64,000 bases of DNA from Candidatus Woesearchaeota archaeon. GTDB taxonomy: Archaea; Nanobdellota; Nanobdellia; Woesearchaeales; WJIZ01. A program made the translations under genes and the position numbers. Shown piece after piece: positions 4,437-61,976 of the stretch; the first letter of the stretch is position 1; every line of letters begins with the position of its first letter. The stretch covers positions 1 through 64,000 of the forward strand of contig WJIZ01000043.1 of NCBI GenBank assembly GCA_014729995.1, written 5' to 3'. The notes under the pieces were generated by a model. That model was not told where the DNA came from. It was given only the letters and a program-made list of their open reading frames with translations, and made no database searches.

Positions 4437-5255
4437 ATGGCTGAATCAAACATAATAGGATCATACATTGAGGGTTTTGATCAGGCTCTTGGCGGAGGGA
4501 TCCCAAAAAACCATATAGTTATGATATACGGCTCTGCAGGTACCATGAAGTCTTCACTCTGCTTCAATATACTGTATAATGAGATACTGAAAGGAAAGAA
4601 AGGAGTTTATGTTTCCATCGAGCAGAACAGCCTATCCTTGTTGAGGCAGATGGTGAGCCTTGGTTTTGATATATCCAAAGTTAATATAGAGGTGCTGAAC
4701 GACGCACAAGACATATTAAGGGGCCTGTCAAAACTAAAGGATGATGAGTCAAAGAAGCTTACTATCGTAGATTTAGGCAGCATAAGAAAACAGCTTAAAG
4801 GAAAGAGCAACAAGAACAAGAAAGGGACAGCAGACTTTGCTTTCGGGCCTGATATGATAACTACAATATTGAAAATAGCTGAAACACTAAAATCAAAAAA
4901 ACTATGCGATATCTTAGTTCTGGATTCATTGACTGCTATTTATTCCCTAACACAAATCAAAGAAGTAAGGAGCGACATATTCTACCTTTTTGAATTTTTC
5001 AGGGATATCGGAGTGACTACTTTCGTGATATCTGAAGAGAGTGAAATTAATCCTAATTATACGCGGATAGGAATAGAAAGCTATCTTGTAGACGGGATAA
5101 TACACCTCCAGCTTACTGAGAGGAACAGGAAAGTTACCAGGGAGATAAGCGTTGTCAAGATGAGGTCGACGGACTGCAACAATGACGTATTCACACTGGA
5201 ATTCGGGAAAAACAAATTCAAAGCGCTGTACGGCGGCAAGATGCCCCTAGTATAA
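4437..5255 (+). CDS. RecA-superfamily ATPase, KaiC/FlaH-like
   Basis: A 272-residue single-domain ATPase. The Walker A loop GSAGTMKSS is at residues 32-40 after a KaiC-style lead (IEGFDQALGGGIPKNHIVMIY). The Walker B strand (ILVLDSLTAIY) is near residues 160-172. The KaiC/RadA/FlaH family includes the archaellum stator-ring protein FlaH, and position directly after a pilus ATPase/platform operon favours a FlaH-like accessory role. A RadA paralogue or other KaiC-like signalling ATPase cannot be excluded. It is 9 bp downstream of the HTH gene. Confidence 0.75.
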   Translation: MAESNIIGSYIEGFDQALGGGIPKNHIVMIYGSAGTMKSSLCFNILYNEILKGKKGVYVSIEQNSLSLLRQMVSLGFDISKVNIEVLNDAQDILRGLSKLKDDESKKLTIVDLGSIRKQLKGKSNKNKKGTADFAFGPDMITTILKIAETLKSKKLCDILVLDSLTAIYSLTQIKEVRSDIFYLFEFFRDIGVTTFVISEESEINPNYTRIGIESYLVDGIIHLQLTERNRKVTREISVVKMRSTDCNNDVFTLEFGKNKFKALYGGKMPLV

Positions 5256-33328: not shown

Positions 33329-33419
33329 GCCCCTGTGGCTTAGTGGCTATAGCGGCTGACTTGTACGAAAATTTTTTCATGAGATCAGCAGGTCGGGAGT
33401 TCAATTCTCCCCAGGGGCT
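33329..33419 (+). tRNA. tRNA-Thr(TGT) with an 18-nt intron
   Basis: Cloverleaf: acceptor GCCCCTG/CAGGGGC with discriminator T, D-stem GCT/AGC, anticodon stem GCTGA/TCAGC, T-arm GGGAG TTCAATT CTCCC. The loop becomes CTTGTAA (anticodon TGT at 33362-33364) after removal of 33366-33383, a very short intron at the canonical 37/38 site. A TATA-like box (atttttaaatg, about 33293-33303) lies about 30 bp upstream. CCA is not encoded. The next coding gene begins only 7 bp after the tRNA. Confidence 0.92.
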
Positions 33420-36601: not shown

Positions 36602-36676
36602 GGATATAGATTTATGGAAATCTTTAAAAGAATAACGGGAATTCGGATATTATGCGCCTGTAGCTCAGCTTGGATA

Positions 36677-36691
36677 TGGAAACACCAAAAA
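36677..36691 (+). other. D-loop intron (15 nt) of tRNA-Arg
   Basis: Fifteen extra bases lie between GGATA and GAGC. Their removal restores a 10-base D-loop with the conserved GG. The insert can form a tiny TGG/CCA hairpin. Its A-run can pair with the T-run at the end of the second intron in the same gene, which may help or compete with folding. Confidence 0.65.
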
Positions 36692-36712
36692 GAGCGAATG
36701 CCTCCTAAGCAT

Positions 36713-36742
36713 AGGATATGTATATACTTACTATCCGCTTTT
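36713..36742 (+). other. Anticodon-stem intron (30 nt) of tRNA-Arg, about position 42/43
   Basis: Thirty bases interrupt the 3' strand of the anticodon stem, between GCAT and the final T. They contain a GGATA/TATCC stem. Removal gives the stem AATGC/GCATT and a five-base variable loop, both standard. Confidence 0.7.
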
Positions 36743-36854
36743 TAGGTCCGGAGTTCAAATCTTCGCAGGCGCGTTTTTTCTTTTTATTTGATTAAATTCA
36801 GCTGAATTTAAAATAAACTGAAATAAATGAGAATAATAAGATTTTTTTACCGGT

Positions 36855-43097: not shown

Positions 43098-43177
43098 GTG
43101 CCCCTTCCTTTATAAGAAATTTATAAATATGTCGGATTTGAGTAAAGATATTTATATTAGTGAAGCCTCTTAAGCTT

Positions 43178-43954
43178 ATGTTTATCAATAATATAGACCC
43201 TGTTCTTTTTAAAATCGGCATGTTCGAGATAAGGTATTATGGATTGATTTTTGTGCTGGGATTCATAATCAGTTATTTTTTTTTAGTATATTTCATAAAA
43301 AAAGGCAAGCTAGAGCTGAAGGTTAAAAAATTAGATGACTTATTCTTATACCTGGTTCTGGGAATAGTAATCGGGGCAAGGCTGTTCTATGTTTTTTTCT
43401 ATTCGCCGGAAATGCTATTTGCTCCTGCCTCTATACTTAGAGTGTGGGAGGGGGGATTAGCTTTCCACGGCGGATTAATAGGGGCTATCGTTGCTGTTAT
43501 CTTTTTCTCCAGAAGAAATAAGATAAAAGTTATTCAGGTTTTTGATGCACTGGCTGTTCCTGCTTCCTTGAGTCTGGCTTTCGGAAGAATAGCTAATTTT
43601 ACGAACCATGAGCTTTATGGGTATGTAACTAATGTGCCCTGGTGTGTCGTGTTTAGGACTGCGGATGGCTGCAGGCACCCTTACCAGTTATATGCTTTCC
43701 TGTCTCACTTGATAATGTTTTCTATAATTATTTATGTTTATAATAGGCAGAGAAAGGAAGGCAGCAGCTTTTGGGCATTTATCCTTGTTTACGGCGCGTT
43801 CAGATTTTTAACTGATTTCTTCAAAATAGAGTATAAGTATTTTGGCTTAGGAATAGGACAGATTGCAAGCATTATCATGGTTGGCTTAGCATTATATGCA
43901 ATTATAAAGAAAAAATTAATCGTTTTCGACACGCGGAGCAAGGATAAAGCTTAA
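43178..43954 (+). CDS. lgt: Prolipoprotein diacylglyceryl transferase
   Basis: A 258-residue membrane enzyme that attaches diacylglycerol to the lipobox Cys of prolipoproteins. Conserved blocks are VWEGGLAFHGGLIGA (about residues 89-103, with the catalytic-region His at 97), GRIANFTNHELYG (about 136-148) and HPYQLYAF. Lgt is essentially bacterial and rare in archaea, so transfer is likely. The lipoprotein at 14272 with a lipobox could be its substrate. Start at the ATG at 43178 because a TATA-like box (atttatatt) lies about 25 bp upstream; a GTG at 43160 would fall inside the promoter spacing. The end overlaps pcn by 39 bp on opposite strands. Confidence 0.88.
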   Translation: MFINNIDPVLFKIGMFEIRYYGLIFVLGFIISYFFLVYFIKKGKLELKVKKLDDLFLYLVLGIVIGARLFYVFFYSPEMLFAPASILRVWEGGLAFHGGLIGAIVAVIFFSRRNKIKVIQVFDALAVPASLSLAFGRIANFTNHELYGYVTNVPWCVVFRTADGCRHPYQLYAFLSHLIMFSIIIYVYNRQRKEGSSFWAFILVYGAFRFLTDFFKIEYKYFGLGIGQIASIIMVGLALYAIIKKKLIVFDTRSKDKA

Positions 43955-44743: not shown

Positions 44744-46084
44744 TTACATTTTATTGCTGAGCTTTAATGTTTCCCCATCTTTAAGAATGTGGATGCTCTT
44801 TTCCATTTCATATCCCTTTTCTATGGCCAGATTAGCTAATGACATTTTCATGTCCAAGTTTCCGTGAGCGGGAACTATATGCTGAGGAGAAAGCATAGTT
44901 AACATGTCCCTTAAATCCTCTTTTGCGGCATGGCCTGAAACATGAATATCGCGGAATATCCTTGCTCCCCTGTGCATGAGCTCGTCTTCCAGCTTTTTCC
45001 TGTTTATGACATTTATCTGAGAAGGGATTATCCTGCATGAAAATATTACATGATCTTCCGGCCTGAATTTGAAATTGATGCCTTTTTTTACCATCCTGCT
45101 TAATGTTGATTTTGGCTCGCCCTGGTGGCCTGTAACTACCAGGAGGTATTTTTCAGGGCCTTGTTTCATTACTTGGCTTAGCTTTCGCTTTATCTTATTT
45201 CCGTATTTCACTATTTCCACCCTGCCTGAAAACTTAACCAGGCCTATGTTCTCTCCTGCCTCGGTATATTTCGCTAGGCTCCTTCCCAGAAAAACAATTT
45301 TCCTGTTCATCTTAACGCCGAATTCCACTATCGACTTAAGCCTTGCCAAATGCGATGAAAATGTTGTTACTATGACAGCCTTGCCTTTTGAATCAACACC
45401 AAGCAAGACATCCCTTAACATTTCCCTGGCGACTGTTTCAGAAGGGGTTTTGACAGGGTGGCCTGCCCTCGTAGAATCAACTATAAGGCATTTTACTCCG
45501 GCTTTGCCTATTTTTCTTAATCTCTCATAATTCGGCTTTTTGCCTATTATAGGATGGTTGTCGAATTTGAAATCGTTCGCATAAATCAGTGTGCCTTCCC
45601 TGGTGTGCAATGCTGCAATTACCACCTGGGGGGTGGAATGGGTTATATTTATGAATTCAATCTTCAAATCCCTGCTTAACTTATATGAGGAATTAACGTT
45701 TAATACTTTTATTTCATTTTTCAGCCTTATTTTCTCATCTTTAACTATTGATTTTATAACTTCAGCTGTGAATGGGGTGCAGATTATGGGGCAGCTGTAT
45801 TTATTTGAAAGATAGATTATCGCGCCTACATGATCGAGATGCGCATGCGTCGGTATTATTGCCTTAACCTTATTCCTTATAGGCTTGATTACTGAATCGT
45901 CCGGGACAGCGCCCACTTTCCTAAGCTCTTCTGCAGAAATATTCCCAATGTCCTCGTCTTCAGTATATTTGATATAAGGCTCCAAATGAATGCCCATATC
46001 GATGATGACTGCTTCATTTTCTATCTCAACTGCAGTCATGTTCTTTCCGACTTCGTTATAGCCGCCGACTGTGTGGATTATCAT
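44744..46084 (-). CDS. rnj: Archaeal ribonuclease J
   Basis: A 446-residue metallo-beta-lactamase nuclease with a beta-CASP domain. The zinc motif THAHLDHVG places H80, H82, D84 and H85. Later sites are VDSTRAGHPVKTPSE, a conserved HASGHAAKEDL-like block (VSGHAAKEDLRDM) and PAHGNLDM. RNase J degrades RNA 5' to 3' and matures RNAs. It lies 84 bp upstream of pcn on the same strand. Confidence 0.93.
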   Translation of the reverse strand: MIIHTVGGYNEVGKNMTAVEIENEAVIIDMGIHLEPYIKYTEDEDIGNISAEELRKVGAVPDDSVIKPIRNKVKAIIPTHAHLDHVGAIIYLSNKYSCPIICTPFTAEVIKSIVKDEKIRLKNEIKVLNVNSSYKLSRDLKIEFINITHSTPQVVIAALHTREGTLIYANDFKFDNHPIIGKKPNYERLRKIGKAGVKCLIVDSTRAGHPVKTPSETVAREMLRDVLLGVDSKGKAVIVTTFSSHLARLKSIVEFGVKMNRKIVFLGRSLAKYTEAGENIGLVKFSGRVEIVKYGNKIKRKLSQVMKQGPEKYLLVVTGHQGEPKSTLSRMVKKGINFKFRPEDHVIFSCRIIPSQINVINRKKLEDELMHRGARIFRDIHVSGHAAKEDLRDMLTMLSPQHIVPAHGNLDMKMSLANLAIEKGYEMEKSIHILKDGETLKLSNKM

Positions 46085-46328: not shown

Positions 46329-46343
46329 TGCGGGGACGAGGAC

Positions 46344-46374
46344 TTTCAATGAGTCTGTTTTCACAGAAACTTTT
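46344..46374 (-). other. T-loop intron (31 nt) of tRNA-Leu
   Basis: The T-loop TTCAAGT (or TTCAAAT) is split by 31 bases that fold with a TCTGT/ACAGA stem and GAAA loop. Without removal the T-stem arms CGGGG and CCTCG are too far apart. The boundary is ambiguous by one base. Confidence 0.75.
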
Positions 46375-46405
46375 TTGAACCCCGGTAGGCACTAAGCCAA
46401 TAGAT

Positions 46406-46456
46406 GGCTCACGAGTTCTTCATCAGCCTTTCCTGAAAGCTTCATAACTCAAATGT
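46406..46456 (-). other. Anticodon-loop intron (51 nt) of tRNA-Leu with motif shared with tRNA-Phe
   Basis: This canonical-site intron contains TTATGAAGC, a hairpin and GCTGATGAAGAAC. The tRNA-Phe 37/38 intron has TTATGAGGC and GCTAATGAAGAAC in the same order, so the two introns share a structured core. The AATGA/GATGA context resembles a kink-turn but was not proven. Confidence 0.75.
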
Positions 46457-46463
46457 CTTGAGT

Positions 46464-46491
46464 TTGGATGTTTAGCGCCATGCGGTAAACA
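46464..46491 (-). other. Anticodon-stem intron (28 nt) of tRNA-Leu, position 30/31
   Basis: It separates ATAG from the last A of the 5' anticodon stem. It folds as TGTTTA/TAAACA. Removal makes a perfect ATAGA/TCTAT stem. Confidence 0.75.
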
Positions 46492-46574
46492 CTATCCCGT
46501 TTGACCGCTCCGGCATCCCCGCATTAATCTGGGAAAATGAAAAACAGTTTTTAATATTTACGATTAAAGAAGAA

Positions 46575-51452: not shown

Positions 51453-53921
51453 ATGGCGGAAGAAAGAGAAAATAAAGAGAAGGTAGAACAGGAAAGCGTA
51501 ATTGTCAGAGAAATAGAGACAGAGATGAAAGAGTCTTACCTTAATTATTCAATGTCTGTAATAATAGGGAGGGCGCTTCCTGATGTAAGAGACGGATTAA
51601 AGCCGGTGCACAGGAGAATTCTCTTTGCCATGCACCAGATGGGCATGTTTCATAATAAGCCTTTCAAGAAATGCGCAAGAATAGTCGGAGAGGTTTTAGG
51701 CAAGTATCATCCGCACGGAGACACTGCAGTTTATGACAGCCTGGTAAGGCTGGCCCAGCCTTTCTCCATGAGATATCCGTTGATACAGGGCCAGGGAAAT
51801 TTCGGCTCTCTAGACGGTGATTCTGCAGCAGCTATGCGTTATACTGAAGCCAGGCTGAACAGGCTTTCTGAGGAAATGCTCCAGGATATAGATAAAGATA
51901 CTGTTGATTTCACGGACAATTTTGACGGCAGCCTAAAAGAGCCTGCTGTACTGCCTGCTAAACTGCCGAACTTACTGATCAACGGCTCTTCAGGCATTGC
52001 TGTAGGCATGGCTACGAATATACCGCCGCATAACCTGGGAGAGGTCATAGACGCTGCTGTCGGGATGATAGACAACCCAGATATTGCTGTACAACAGATT
52101 ATGCATTATCTGAAGGGGCCTGATTTTCCTACAGGGGGCATAATATGCGGGAAAAACGGGATAATAAATGCTTATTCTACGGGAAAAGGAAAGATTATAG
52201 TAAAATCAAGGCACGAGATTGAGGAGAAAAACGGGAAAAAGAGCATCATTATCAGGGAAATACCATATATGGTAAACAAGGCTGAGCTGATATTGCAGAT
52301 TGCTGAGCTGGTGAAAGAAAAGAAAATTAGCGGCATAGCAGACTTAAGAGATGAATCTGATAGAGAAGGAATGAGGATAGTAATCCAGCTCAAGAAAGAG
52401 TCTAATCCTGAGCTTATAATAAACCAGCTGCACAAGCATACTAGAATGCAGACGACTTTTGGCATACTAATGCTTGCATTGGCAGATGATAAGCCCAAAG
52501 TAATGAGCATCAAAGAATTCCTTGAAAATTTCATACTGCATAGAAAGAATGTTGTAGTTAAGAGGACCAAGTTTGAGCTTAAGAAAGCACAGGACAGGGC
52601 GCATATCTTGGAAGGAATAATTAAAGCTCTTAATAATGTTGACTTAGCTATAAAGCTTATAAGAAATGCTAATACAGTGGATGATGCCAGAAAACAACTT
52701 ATTGGCAATTTCAGCATAAGCGTAAAGCAGGCAGATGCTATCCTTGAGCTGAAACTGCAAAAACTGGCCAGCCTTGAGCAAGAAAAAATAAGAGAGGAGC
52801 ATAAAGGGCTTATGAGACTAATCCAGCAATTAAAAGATGTGCTGGCCAGCGACAGGAAGATATATGATATTATTAAGGATGAATTGACAGAATTAAGGGC
52901 AAAATATAATGATGAGAGAAAAACCAGGATAAGCAATGAGGAAATTACTGAATTGAATATGGAAGACCTTGTTGAAGAAGAAGATAATGTAATTACCATA
53001 ACTTCCAAAGGCTATATAAAAAGGCAGGAAATATCTTCGTACAGGCAGCAAAGAAGGGGGGGGAGGGGCATAATAGCTGCAAATATGAGGGAAGAAGATT
53101 TTATTAAAGACATATTCATCGCAAATACTCATTCTTATATTCTGTTTTTTACTGACAAGGGCCAGGTCTACTGGCTTAAAGTTTATTACATACCTGAAGG
53201 AAGCAGGCAAAGCCAGGGAAAGGCTATTGTTAATTTGCTGAATCTTGCGAGAGATGAAAGAATAACTGCTTATATAGCTATAAATAAGTTTACCAAGGGA
53301 GATTACCTGCTTATGGCTACAGAAAAAGGAATTATAAAAAAGACAAGCTTGGAAAGCTATTCCAGACCAAGGAAAGGCGGCATAATAGCTATAAACCTGC
53401 AGAACAGAGACAGGCTGGTTGATGTGCTGCTCACAGACGGAAACCAGAAGATACTTCTGGCGACGAAAAGAGGCATGGCAGTAAAATTCCATGAAAAGGA
53501 TGTGAGGGCTGTAGGAAGAAACTCTACAGGAGTCAGGGGAGCAAAACTCAGAAATGAAGATGCTGTTATCGGCATGGTTAATGCAGAAGAAAAAAAGAAA
53601 CTTCTTACCCTGACCGAAAGGGGCTATGGAAAAAGAACAAGAATAGCTGATTACAGGCTTATAAACAGGGGAGGAAAAGGTGTTATAAACATAATAAAAA
53701 ATAAGCGCAACGGAAATGTTGTCACTGTGCTGCTCATTGATGATGATGAAGAATTCATGGCTATAACAAGAAAAGGGATTGCCATGAGAACCAAGGGAGG
53801 AGAGATCTCGGTCATAGGAAGAAATACACAGGGAGTGAGAGTGATGAGGCTTGGCGAAGGAGATACATTAGTCGGAGCCACTAAAATAAAGAGTGAGGAA
53901 GAAGAGCCCGAAGAAGTATAG
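51453..53921 (+). CDS. gyrA: DNA gyrase subunit A
   Basis: An 822-residue type IIA topoisomerase subunit. The catalytic Tyr is residue 130 in MRYTEARL. The N-terminal breakage-reunion domain (about 1-500) precedes six beta-propeller repeats, and a GyrA box QRRGGRG at 533-539 shows gyrase rather than topoisomerase IV. Gyrase negatively supercoils DNA; archaeal copies are bacterial imports. gyrB is not in the window. The C-terminus (EEEEPEEV) is acidic. Confidence 0.95.
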
Positions 53922-60531: not shown

Positions 60532-60656
60532 GACAATAATAACTTTTTTATAGTATAAATAGTTTTAGAAACTATTGAAGAGTAGTATATTATAGAAAGA
60601 TTTATTAATGAAATGTATTTTTATTTCTATTGGGGAACAATATTATGGGTGATAAA

Positions 60657-61976
60657 ATGACAAAGAAATCTAGGTCAAAGTCAAAACAAAAAATAAAGTC
60701 TGCTTTATTTACGATAATCTTGGCTGTTATTGTTATAAGCATATTGATATATTTAATTATGGGAGAGCAGTCAAAAGATGCGCATAGCGGGACTGCTGCA
60801 ATAGTCAATGGGGAGAAAATAACCCAGGCGGAACTGGAAGAAGAATATTCCAAACTGCCTCTGGAATACAGGTCCTTGATATCAAAAGAGGATATGCTTT
60901 CCCAGCTAATAGATAAAAAACTCCTTATGCAAAGGGCAAAATCAGAAGGAATTTCTGTTTCTGAGGATGAAATCCAGGAGCAAATGCAGCTGATAAAGCA
61001 GCAATTCCCAAATGAAGAAAGCTTTAACCAAATCCTGGAACAGCAGAATTTAACTGTAAATGACATAGAGGGGCAGATAAGAGAGCAACTGCTAATAAAT
61101 AAACTGCTTAATCAGACAGTTATTTCAAAAATAGAAATCAGCGAACAGGCTATGATTGATTATTACGAGGAGAATGTTGACCAGTTTACTGCATCAGAGG
61201 AAGAAATCAGAGCTGCTCATATACTGGTAGAAAGCGAGGCAGAAGCAGGAGAGGTAATCGAGTTGCTCGAGGCTGGAGAAAGTTTTGAAGAGCTGGCTGC
61301 AGAGAGGTCCCGGGACCCATCTGCCAGAACAAATATGGGAAATCTAGGATTTTTTTCTAAAGGCACTATGGTAGAAGAGTTTGAGGAAGTGGCATTTGCC
61401 CTTGAAGTGGGCGAGATTTCAGATCCTGTTGAAACGTCATTTGGATACCATGTTATAAAAAGGCTTTCAGATCAAATACCGATGGAAGAGGCCAGAGATG
61501 AAATAGAAAACTCATTATTATCTGATGTGCAGTCAGAAAAAATAGAGGAATATCTTGCAGTGTTAAGAGAAGAAGCCCAAATTCAGACAGACACAGGCGC
61601 AGAAAAAATAATAGGGAATGAATTTAAAGACACAGGAGATGAGGTTTGTTTTGAAGGCGGAAAACCAATAATCAGGAGATATACTTCTTCGAACTGTGCA
61701 AAATGCCGTGAAGTGGAAAGTGCTTTCAGGCAGGCTGCAGAGGAATTCGATGTGGTAGTTAAAGAATGGGAGCTTGATACCGGCGATAACCTTAATACAG
61801 CTGAGACCGAATCTGCTATGCCTAAGTATGAGTATGAAATTCTCAGAGAATATAATCCCGGTGCTGCTGTGCCTGCTTATGTTTTCGGATGCAAATACGC
61901 AAGAATAGGAAATGCGAATTTGGACTTAGATAAAGAGGAACTGGTTTTCAGACAAACCTTAGAAAGATTAACATGA
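60657..61976 (+). CDS. Membrane-anchored parvulin foldase fused to a thioredoxin-like domain
   Basis: A 439-residue extracellular protein. A membrane anchor (about 17-34) is followed by a SurA/PrsA-like chaperone helix region (about 45-175), a parvulin peptidyl-prolyl isomerase domain (EIRAAHILVESEAEAGEVIE at about 181-200 to about 285) and a C-terminal thioredoxin fold (about 325-439) with C347-x-x-C350 in SSNCAKCREVESA and a cis-Pro loop AVPAYVFGCKY. Such a PPIase-thioredoxin fusion is unusual. The start at 60657 follows a GGTGAT site. The next gene overlaps by 4 bp (ATGA) and encodes another envelope thioredoxin-like protein. Confidence 0.85.
   Translation: MTKKSRSKSKQKIKSALFTIILAVIVISILIYLIMGEQSKDAHSGTAAIVNGEKITQAELEEEYSKLPLEYRSLISKEDMLSQLIDKKLLMQRAKSEGISVSEDEIQEQMQLIKQQFPNEESFNQILEQQNLTVNDIEGQIREQLLINKLLNQTVISKIEISEQAMIDYYEENVDQFTASEEEIRAAHILVESEAEAGEVIELLEAGESFEELAAERSRDPSARTNMGNLGFFSKGTMVEEFEEVAFALEVGEISDPVETSFGYHVIKRLSDQIPMEEARDEIENSLLSDVQSEKIEEYLAVLREEAQIQTDTGAEKIIGNEFKDTGDEVCFEGGKPIIRRYTSSNCAKCREVESAFRQAAEEFDVVVKEWELDTGDNLNTAETESAMPKYEYEILREYNPGAAVPAYVFGCKYARIGNANLDLDKEELVFRQTLERLT

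Follow-up and report, generated by a model that had tools for sequence, protein, structure and literature searches.

A tRNA-Leu(CAA) gene with three predicted BHB introns in Woesearchaeota, and a candidate C34 guide in its canonical intron

A gene on the minus strand of a 64,000-nt stretch of a woesearchaeal contig (the whole stretch analysed here, referred to as the window) very probably encodes a functional tRNA-Leu(CAA) interrupted by three BHB introns, which would be removed by protein-dependent splicing. This high confidence applies to the core claim only, i.e., a functional three-intron BHB tRNA; the splicing enzyme and the possible guide function of one of the introns are graded separately below. 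The DPANN affiliation proposed in the initial annotation agrees with the neighborhood of the gene, as the nearest relatives of the adjacent RNase J locus are all Woesearchaeota/Nanoarchaeota records, i.e., Woesearchaeota/Nanobdellota.

The gene reads from position 46522 to 46329 (46329..46522); these coordinates had been given exactly in the initial annotation, which left the minus strand unstated. It is 194 nt long and comprises four exons (84 nt in total) and three introns (110 nt in total), and excision of the 28-, 51-, and 31-nt inserts leaves GCGGGGATGCCGGAGCGGTCAAACGGGATAGACTCAAGATCTATTGGCTTAGTGCCTACCGGGGTTCAAATCCTCGTCCCCGCA, an 84-nt class II tRNA-Leu with the anticodon CAA. Exon 1 (46492..46522, 31 nt) extends to nt 30, contains the 5′ acceptor strand, the D-arm, and the 5′ part of the anticodon stem, and is the same in the ortholog of a relative from the same genus (L025). 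It is followed by intron 1 (46464..46491, 28 nt) at site 30/31, by the short exon 2 (46457..46463, ACTCAAG, nt 31-37, with the anticodon at 46458-46460), and by intron 2 (46406..46456, 51 nt) at the canonical site 37/38. Exon 3 (46374..46405, 32 nt) carries nt 38, the 3′ anticodon stem, the variable arm, the T-stem, and the T-loop up to nt 59, where intron 3 (46343..46373, 31 nt) is inserted at site 59/60. Exon 4 (46329..46342, 14 nt) supplies T60, the 3′ T-stem, the 3′ acceptor strand, and the discriminator A73, and CCA is not encoded. All of these features lie on the minus strand, as does a gene for an RNase J-like protein (44744..46084) about 245 nt downstream, a syntenic partner that was used to locate orthologs.

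ARAGORN and Rfam RF00005 scans of the window did not call this gene, as expected for a tRNA gene with three introns. We used an intron-tolerant alignment and, in order to avoid circularity, took as query a relative's Leu(CAA) gene that has no introns (L147 in genome G009). The alignment scored 98 at the Leu(CAA) locus, 24 at the best unrelated place in the window, and at most 26 on eight Markov-shuffled windows. Rfam matches inside the introns (mir-4000, and sR10 at 13.9 bits) were below the cut-off and, on their own, were taken as chance rather than as intron identities. The initial annotation had pointed to an intact Leu(CAA) gene elsewhere as the observation that would speak against it, and none turned up in searches of the genome (45 contigs totaling 1.33 Mb, 97.9% complete) and in the loci retrieved from it. 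The Leu genes found besides this one have the anticodons GAG and TAG; no Leu(TAA) or Leu(CAG) gene was located in this draft. UUG accounts for 159 of the 1013 Leu codons, thus the Leu(CAA) gene is needed, unless the unlocated Leu(UAA) reads these codons.

We first set the cut sites from the comparison with orthologs and checked the BHB motifs afterwards. At all three junctions, a wholly Watson-Crick 4-bp BHB central helix is present in the 2|1 cut register with 3-nt bulges; BHB motifs had been anticipated in the initial annotation. In intron 1, the central helix GGAT/ATCC is flanked by the bulges AG|T and AA|A and by the inner helix GTTTA/TAAAC, while its outer helix has at most about 1 bp, which makes it a relaxed motif (hBH). 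Intron 2 has the central helix CTCA/TGAG and the bulges AG|A and CC|A, with the anticodon stem as its outer helix after loss of intron 1, and intron 3 has the central helix TTCA/TGAA, the T-stem as its outer helix, and a looser inner side. By our own arithmetic (equal base frequencies), the chance of finding all three helices in register is about 1e-7, given that introns 1 and 3 each allow a single placement of their boundaries and that intron 2 allows two registers. A local fold of intron 3 displays both the T-stem and the central helix, and this motif is also present in the unconstrained MFE folds of the full pre-tRNA, from which the BHBs of introns 1 and 2 are absent. The MFE fold of the full precursor is dominated at the anticodon by an alternative ACTCAA/TTGAG hairpin, and the unconstrained whole-precursor fold was not counted as BHB evidence. 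As motifs 1 and 2 do not appear in these folds, the splicing order proposed below was deduced from the competition between strands.

The RNase J-neighbor search yielded 80 named loci, and searches of the whole genomes of 60 relatives added more; 27 distinct Leu(CAA) orthologs were parsed for introns. They place the three inserts at 30/31, 37/38, and 59/60, i.e., in the anticodon stem, anticodon loop, and T-loop named in the initial annotation, and they bear out its three inserts together with the cloverleaf that excision restores. Natural intron-absent alleles exist at each of the sites. Intron 1 is present in 8 relatives and missing from 19 orthologs, the 37/38 intron is missing from six, L147 lacks all three introns, and introns 1 and 3 are both missing from L026, L033, L034, and L044. 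The same-genus L025 has introns at 30/31 and 37/38 and no T-loop intron. Three other orthologs contain three introns each: L032 at the same three sites as the window gene, L036 in the D-loop and at 37/38 and 59/60, and L039 in the D-arm and at 30/31 and 37/38. The T-loop intron of the L036 ortholog (L036:3213-3558) is 186 nt long, longer than the published range of 11-129 nt (PMC4090602). RNase J makes L032 and L034 near-sisters, yet their Leu(CAA) genes differ by the 30/31 and 59/60 introns, which suggests a recent gain or loss. Further, the presence of the 30/31 intron requires at least five changes on the RNase J tree, which speaks against one single gain; repeated loss, gain, or transfer may be responsible. 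The two-intron difference between near-sisters and these five or more changes together indicate that the Leu(CAA) introns come and go.

A decaying gene in which inserts piled up after disuse would also be overlooked by standard tRNA callers, and could differ from its same-genus relative in the T-loop intron. This reading is very improbable, since the exons are identical to those of L025 at 84 of 84 positions, every junction keeps the Watson-Crick BHB register, no other Leu(CAA) was found, and orthologs with zero to three introns use the same sites. Still further from being credible is an assembly chimera, or a split or permuted gene in place of introns. Such an artifact might be suspected in a draft fragmented into 45 contigs, but the exons follow one another in the right order on a single strand, each junction has a BHB, and other genomes have introns at these same sites. 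The Leu(CAA) gene is real and, in all likelihood, functional.

Triple interruption is not an isolated feature in this lineage. The initial annotation had regarded a triple-intron tRNA as a rarity for DPANN; the triple interruption itself is real, but besides the three further three-intron orthologs, about 11 of the 25 tRNA genes of this genome that we inspected (by reading Rfam alignments and sequences) contain a non-canonical intron. The most extreme case is tRNA-Trp(CCA) (locus L212; contig C23 of this genome, G000, 4995-5216, minus strand, 222 nt), which appears to contain five introns of 28, 21, 50, 19, and 30 nt, the predicted removal of which leaves a 74-nt tRNA. With the exons of L240 as query, exactly these five introns were recovered; L230 and L238 also gave five, with shifted boundaries of introns 3 and 4, and L217, which has a short D-loop, fused the first two into one 50-nt insert at the cost of the D-loop GG. 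By reading, a full 4-bp central helix is present in four of the five, in one case with a G-U pair, and the canonical intron is weaker. The Trp(CCA) of a same-genus relative has two introns, and the published maximum is three introns per tRNA (PMC8450103, PMC4033280).

Several other genes were noted along the way. A tRNA-Leu(TAG) (locus L138, 5′ end at G000 contig C24, 20752-20774, minus strand) contains a D-loop and a canonical intron. In the window, the ARAGORN call tRNA-Arg(ACG) at 33329-33419 (plus strand) reads as a tRNA-Thr(TGT) gene containing a short canonical intron, in which it resembles the remaining Thr genes of this genome, and a tRNA at 36654-36773 (plus strand), Arg(CCT) by reading, with a D-loop and a canonical intron, escaped the default Rfam scan of the window and was caught by the genome scan. 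Three ORFs on the plus strand of the window (43160-43954, 51453-53921, and 60630-61976) resemble, by eye, bacterial-type Lgt-like, gyrase A-like, and parvulin-type isomerase proteins, respectively.

The genome has one gene each for EndA (188 aa) and RtcB, and fibrillarin is also present. Down to E 10, neither a second EndA homolog or subunit nor a three-unit fusion was found in the genome. EndA matches were found in 59 of the 60 relatives, nearly all with one strong hit. Across 31 aligned EndAs, the positions of the catalytic Tyr/His/Lys triad are conserved and no CSL/ASL insertion with a conserved Lys was found, a short loop being present instead; the EndA of this genome has a gap at the place of the Aeropyrum loop. 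Among solved structures, it matches the catalytic subunit of the Nanoarchaeum equitans EndA best, and the alpha4 EndA of M. jannaschii is also a strong match (E 6e-30). With a single short gene, an acidic L10 loop in the same polypeptide, and no CSL/ASL, this EndA looks like the alpha4 type. However, alpha4 enzymes are described as cleaving canonical motifs only (PMC6379350, PMC4033280), and according to reviews, introns with relaxed motifs are efficiently removed only by (alpha-beta)2 and epsilon2 EndAs (PMC6379350; PMC4033280, PMC4090602), an ability that has been linked to CSL/ASL loops (PMC12397907). Given the relaxed introns of this genome at 30/31 and in the D-loop, we predict that its alpha4-type EndA is not strict in its specificity. 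A broad-specificity endonuclease had been postulated in the initial annotation, and some enzyme must indeed cut these sites, but neither an (alpha-beta)2 nor an epsilon2 enzyme was found, only the one short EndA. Thus, the order appears to be an exception to this rule, unless it has a hidden partner protein, and we favor an alpha4 enzyme as the one that probably splices these introns.

Intron 2 may have a function of its own. It contains a guide-like TTGAGT (46447..46452) complementary to A31-A36, followed after one nucleotide by a box-D-like ATGA (46442..46445), in which TGA is at least 90% conserved in the alignment of Leu introns, and further by a box-C-like GATGA (46420..46424), which together with box D forms a K-turn-like element around a covarying hairpin. 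The first G of TTGAGT, the fifth nucleotide upstream of the D-like box, faces C34 (box-D+5). Among 18 Leu(CAA) genes, the 37/38 introns for the most part show the same arrangement of TTGAGT, one nucleotide, NTGA, covarying hairpin, and GATGA-like box, and each of the guide pairing columns is kept in 16-18 of the 18. The canonical introns of tRNA-Met(CAU) in the order contain the same guide/K-turn element (L007 1501-1623; relatives L180-L207), where nt 31 and its intron partner covary among 14 aligned genes (A-U in 7, G-C in 7, broken in 0); in a larger Met set, one of 21 misfits (L200), and its nt 31 is uncertain with an intron nearby. A pattern search with the Trp version matched the tRNA-Trp(CCA) intron of this genome, and the element is also found in the Trp introns of relatives. 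The boxes of the K-turn (NTGA, covarying stem, GATGA-like box) are degenerate relative to box C (RTGATGA) and box D (CTGA), and one C/D-like K-turn was seen per intron instead of the usual C/D plus C′/D′, so we describe the element as working like a C/D guide rather than as a standard C/D sRNA. Trp(CCA) intron guides to C34 are experimentally known in archaea (PMC4090602, PMC7994747). The Pyrococcus tRNAs targeted by C/D guides at the first anticodon position are Leu(CAA), Leu(UAA), Met, and Trp, and the guide for Trp is the only one named as intronic (PMC7994747); the Met C34 guide of Haloferax is a separate sRNA (PMC2584109). From pairing conservation and covariation, we consider intron 2 a fairly good candidate for a box C/D-like guide for 2′-O-methylation of C34.

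Both of these proposals have a competitor. A strongly diverged beta subunit or another partner could make the EndA an (alpha-beta)2-like enzyme of broad specificity, and the recurrence of relaxed 30/31 motifs would then be readily explained, as would the closest solved relative being the catalytic subunit of an (alpha-beta)2 enzyme. Yet this alpha still finds the Nanoarchaeum beta at E 6e-12 and detects no second homolog in its own genome even at E 10, most of the relatives show a single strong hit, and all 31 of the aligned EndAs retain the VDxE L10 loop, as would be expected of an alpha that provides both contacts itself. A hidden partner is thus unlikely, and we retain a single-gene alpha4-type EndA. 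As for TTGAGT, it may act only through the alternative anticodon hairpin, controlling folding or splicing with no role in methylation; this hairpin is found both in the MFE structure and in the alifold consensus, and no C′/D′ pair was seen beside C/D on reading the introns. It is a possible but doubtful account, as pairing alone would not call for the fixed one-nucleotide gap to the NTGA box, the covarying K-turn-like stem, the GATGA-like box, or a C34 at position +5. In addition, the element occurs in Leu(CAA), Met, and Trp introns, i.e., in three of the four archaeal tRNAs for which C/D guides at the first position of the anticodon are listed (PMC7994747). We therefore keep the C34 guide as the preferred reading of the element.

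Taken together, we infer the following processing route, including its order, from the sequence features above. The sole EndA of the genome, predicted to be an alpha4 homotetramer, would cut the pre-tRNA at all six sites, and RtcB would join the exons. Intron 3 should be removable independently of the others, since the T-stem serves as its outer helix. Intron 1 would leave before intron 2, because it interrupts the anticodon stem and sequesters nt 25-28, and the outer helix of intron 2 forms only afterwards. Prior to splicing, intron 2 would probably act as a guide, with TTGAGT on A31-A36 and C34 at box-D+5, for 2′-O-methylation by fibrillarin.

Similar gene architectures are known from Thermoproteales, where triple-intron tRNA genes (e.g., tRNA-Pro(UGG) of Pyrobaculum islandicum; PMC4090602) also combine one canonical and two non-canonical BHB introns, and sites 30/31 and 59/60 are already on the published list of intron sites (PMC4090602). 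The present case differs in its DPANN/woesearchaeal host, in the tRNA affected, and in its single-gene EndA without CSL, whereas the Thermoproteales enzyme is (alpha-beta)2. Among DPANN, Nanoarchaeum equitans and ARMAN likewise have disrupted tRNA genes, either split or with multiple introns (PMC4033280, PMC4090602), but their EndAs are (alpha-beta)2 or epsilon2 instead of one alpha-like gene, and the tRNA-Lys of N. equitans is split at 30/31, where the window gene has a cis intron. The tRNA-Trp(CCA) intron C/D guides for Cm34/Um39 (Haloferax, Pyrococcus sR50; PMC7994747, PMC4090602) resemble intron 2 in having an anticodon-loop complement beside a D box, with C34 as the predicted target here. 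In contrast to them, the introns described here belong to Leu(CAA) and Met(CAU), for which the Pyrococcus C34 guides are separate sRNAs, and they contain one C/D-like K-turn each.

The tRNA architecture alone is less notable; interest is added by its occurrence in one genome with a single EndA gene that lacks CSL/ASL, with introns that bear guide-like elements, and with a Trp gene that appears to have five introns. Reviews couple non-canonical tRNA introns to EndA enzymes that possess either a beta subunit or a CSL/ASL loop, while here a whole archaeal order appears to combine such introns with one short alpha-type gene, which makes the co-evolution model directly testable. Moreover, intron presence varies within a genus and between near-sister genomes, so that their gain and loss can be followed between close relatives. 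As a broader and more tentative proposal, not quite an even bet, Woesearchaeota may process tRNA genes of the highest intron density known, with up to five introns in one tRNA, by means of a single-gene alpha4-type EndA that achieves broad specificity without a beta subunit or CSL/ASL loops, and their canonical introns in Leu(CAA) and Met(CAU), not only in Trp, may double as C34 guides, which would help explain their retention. Intron-borne guides for the wobble C34 in Leu(CAA) and Met would give a function to introns that are often deemed neutral.
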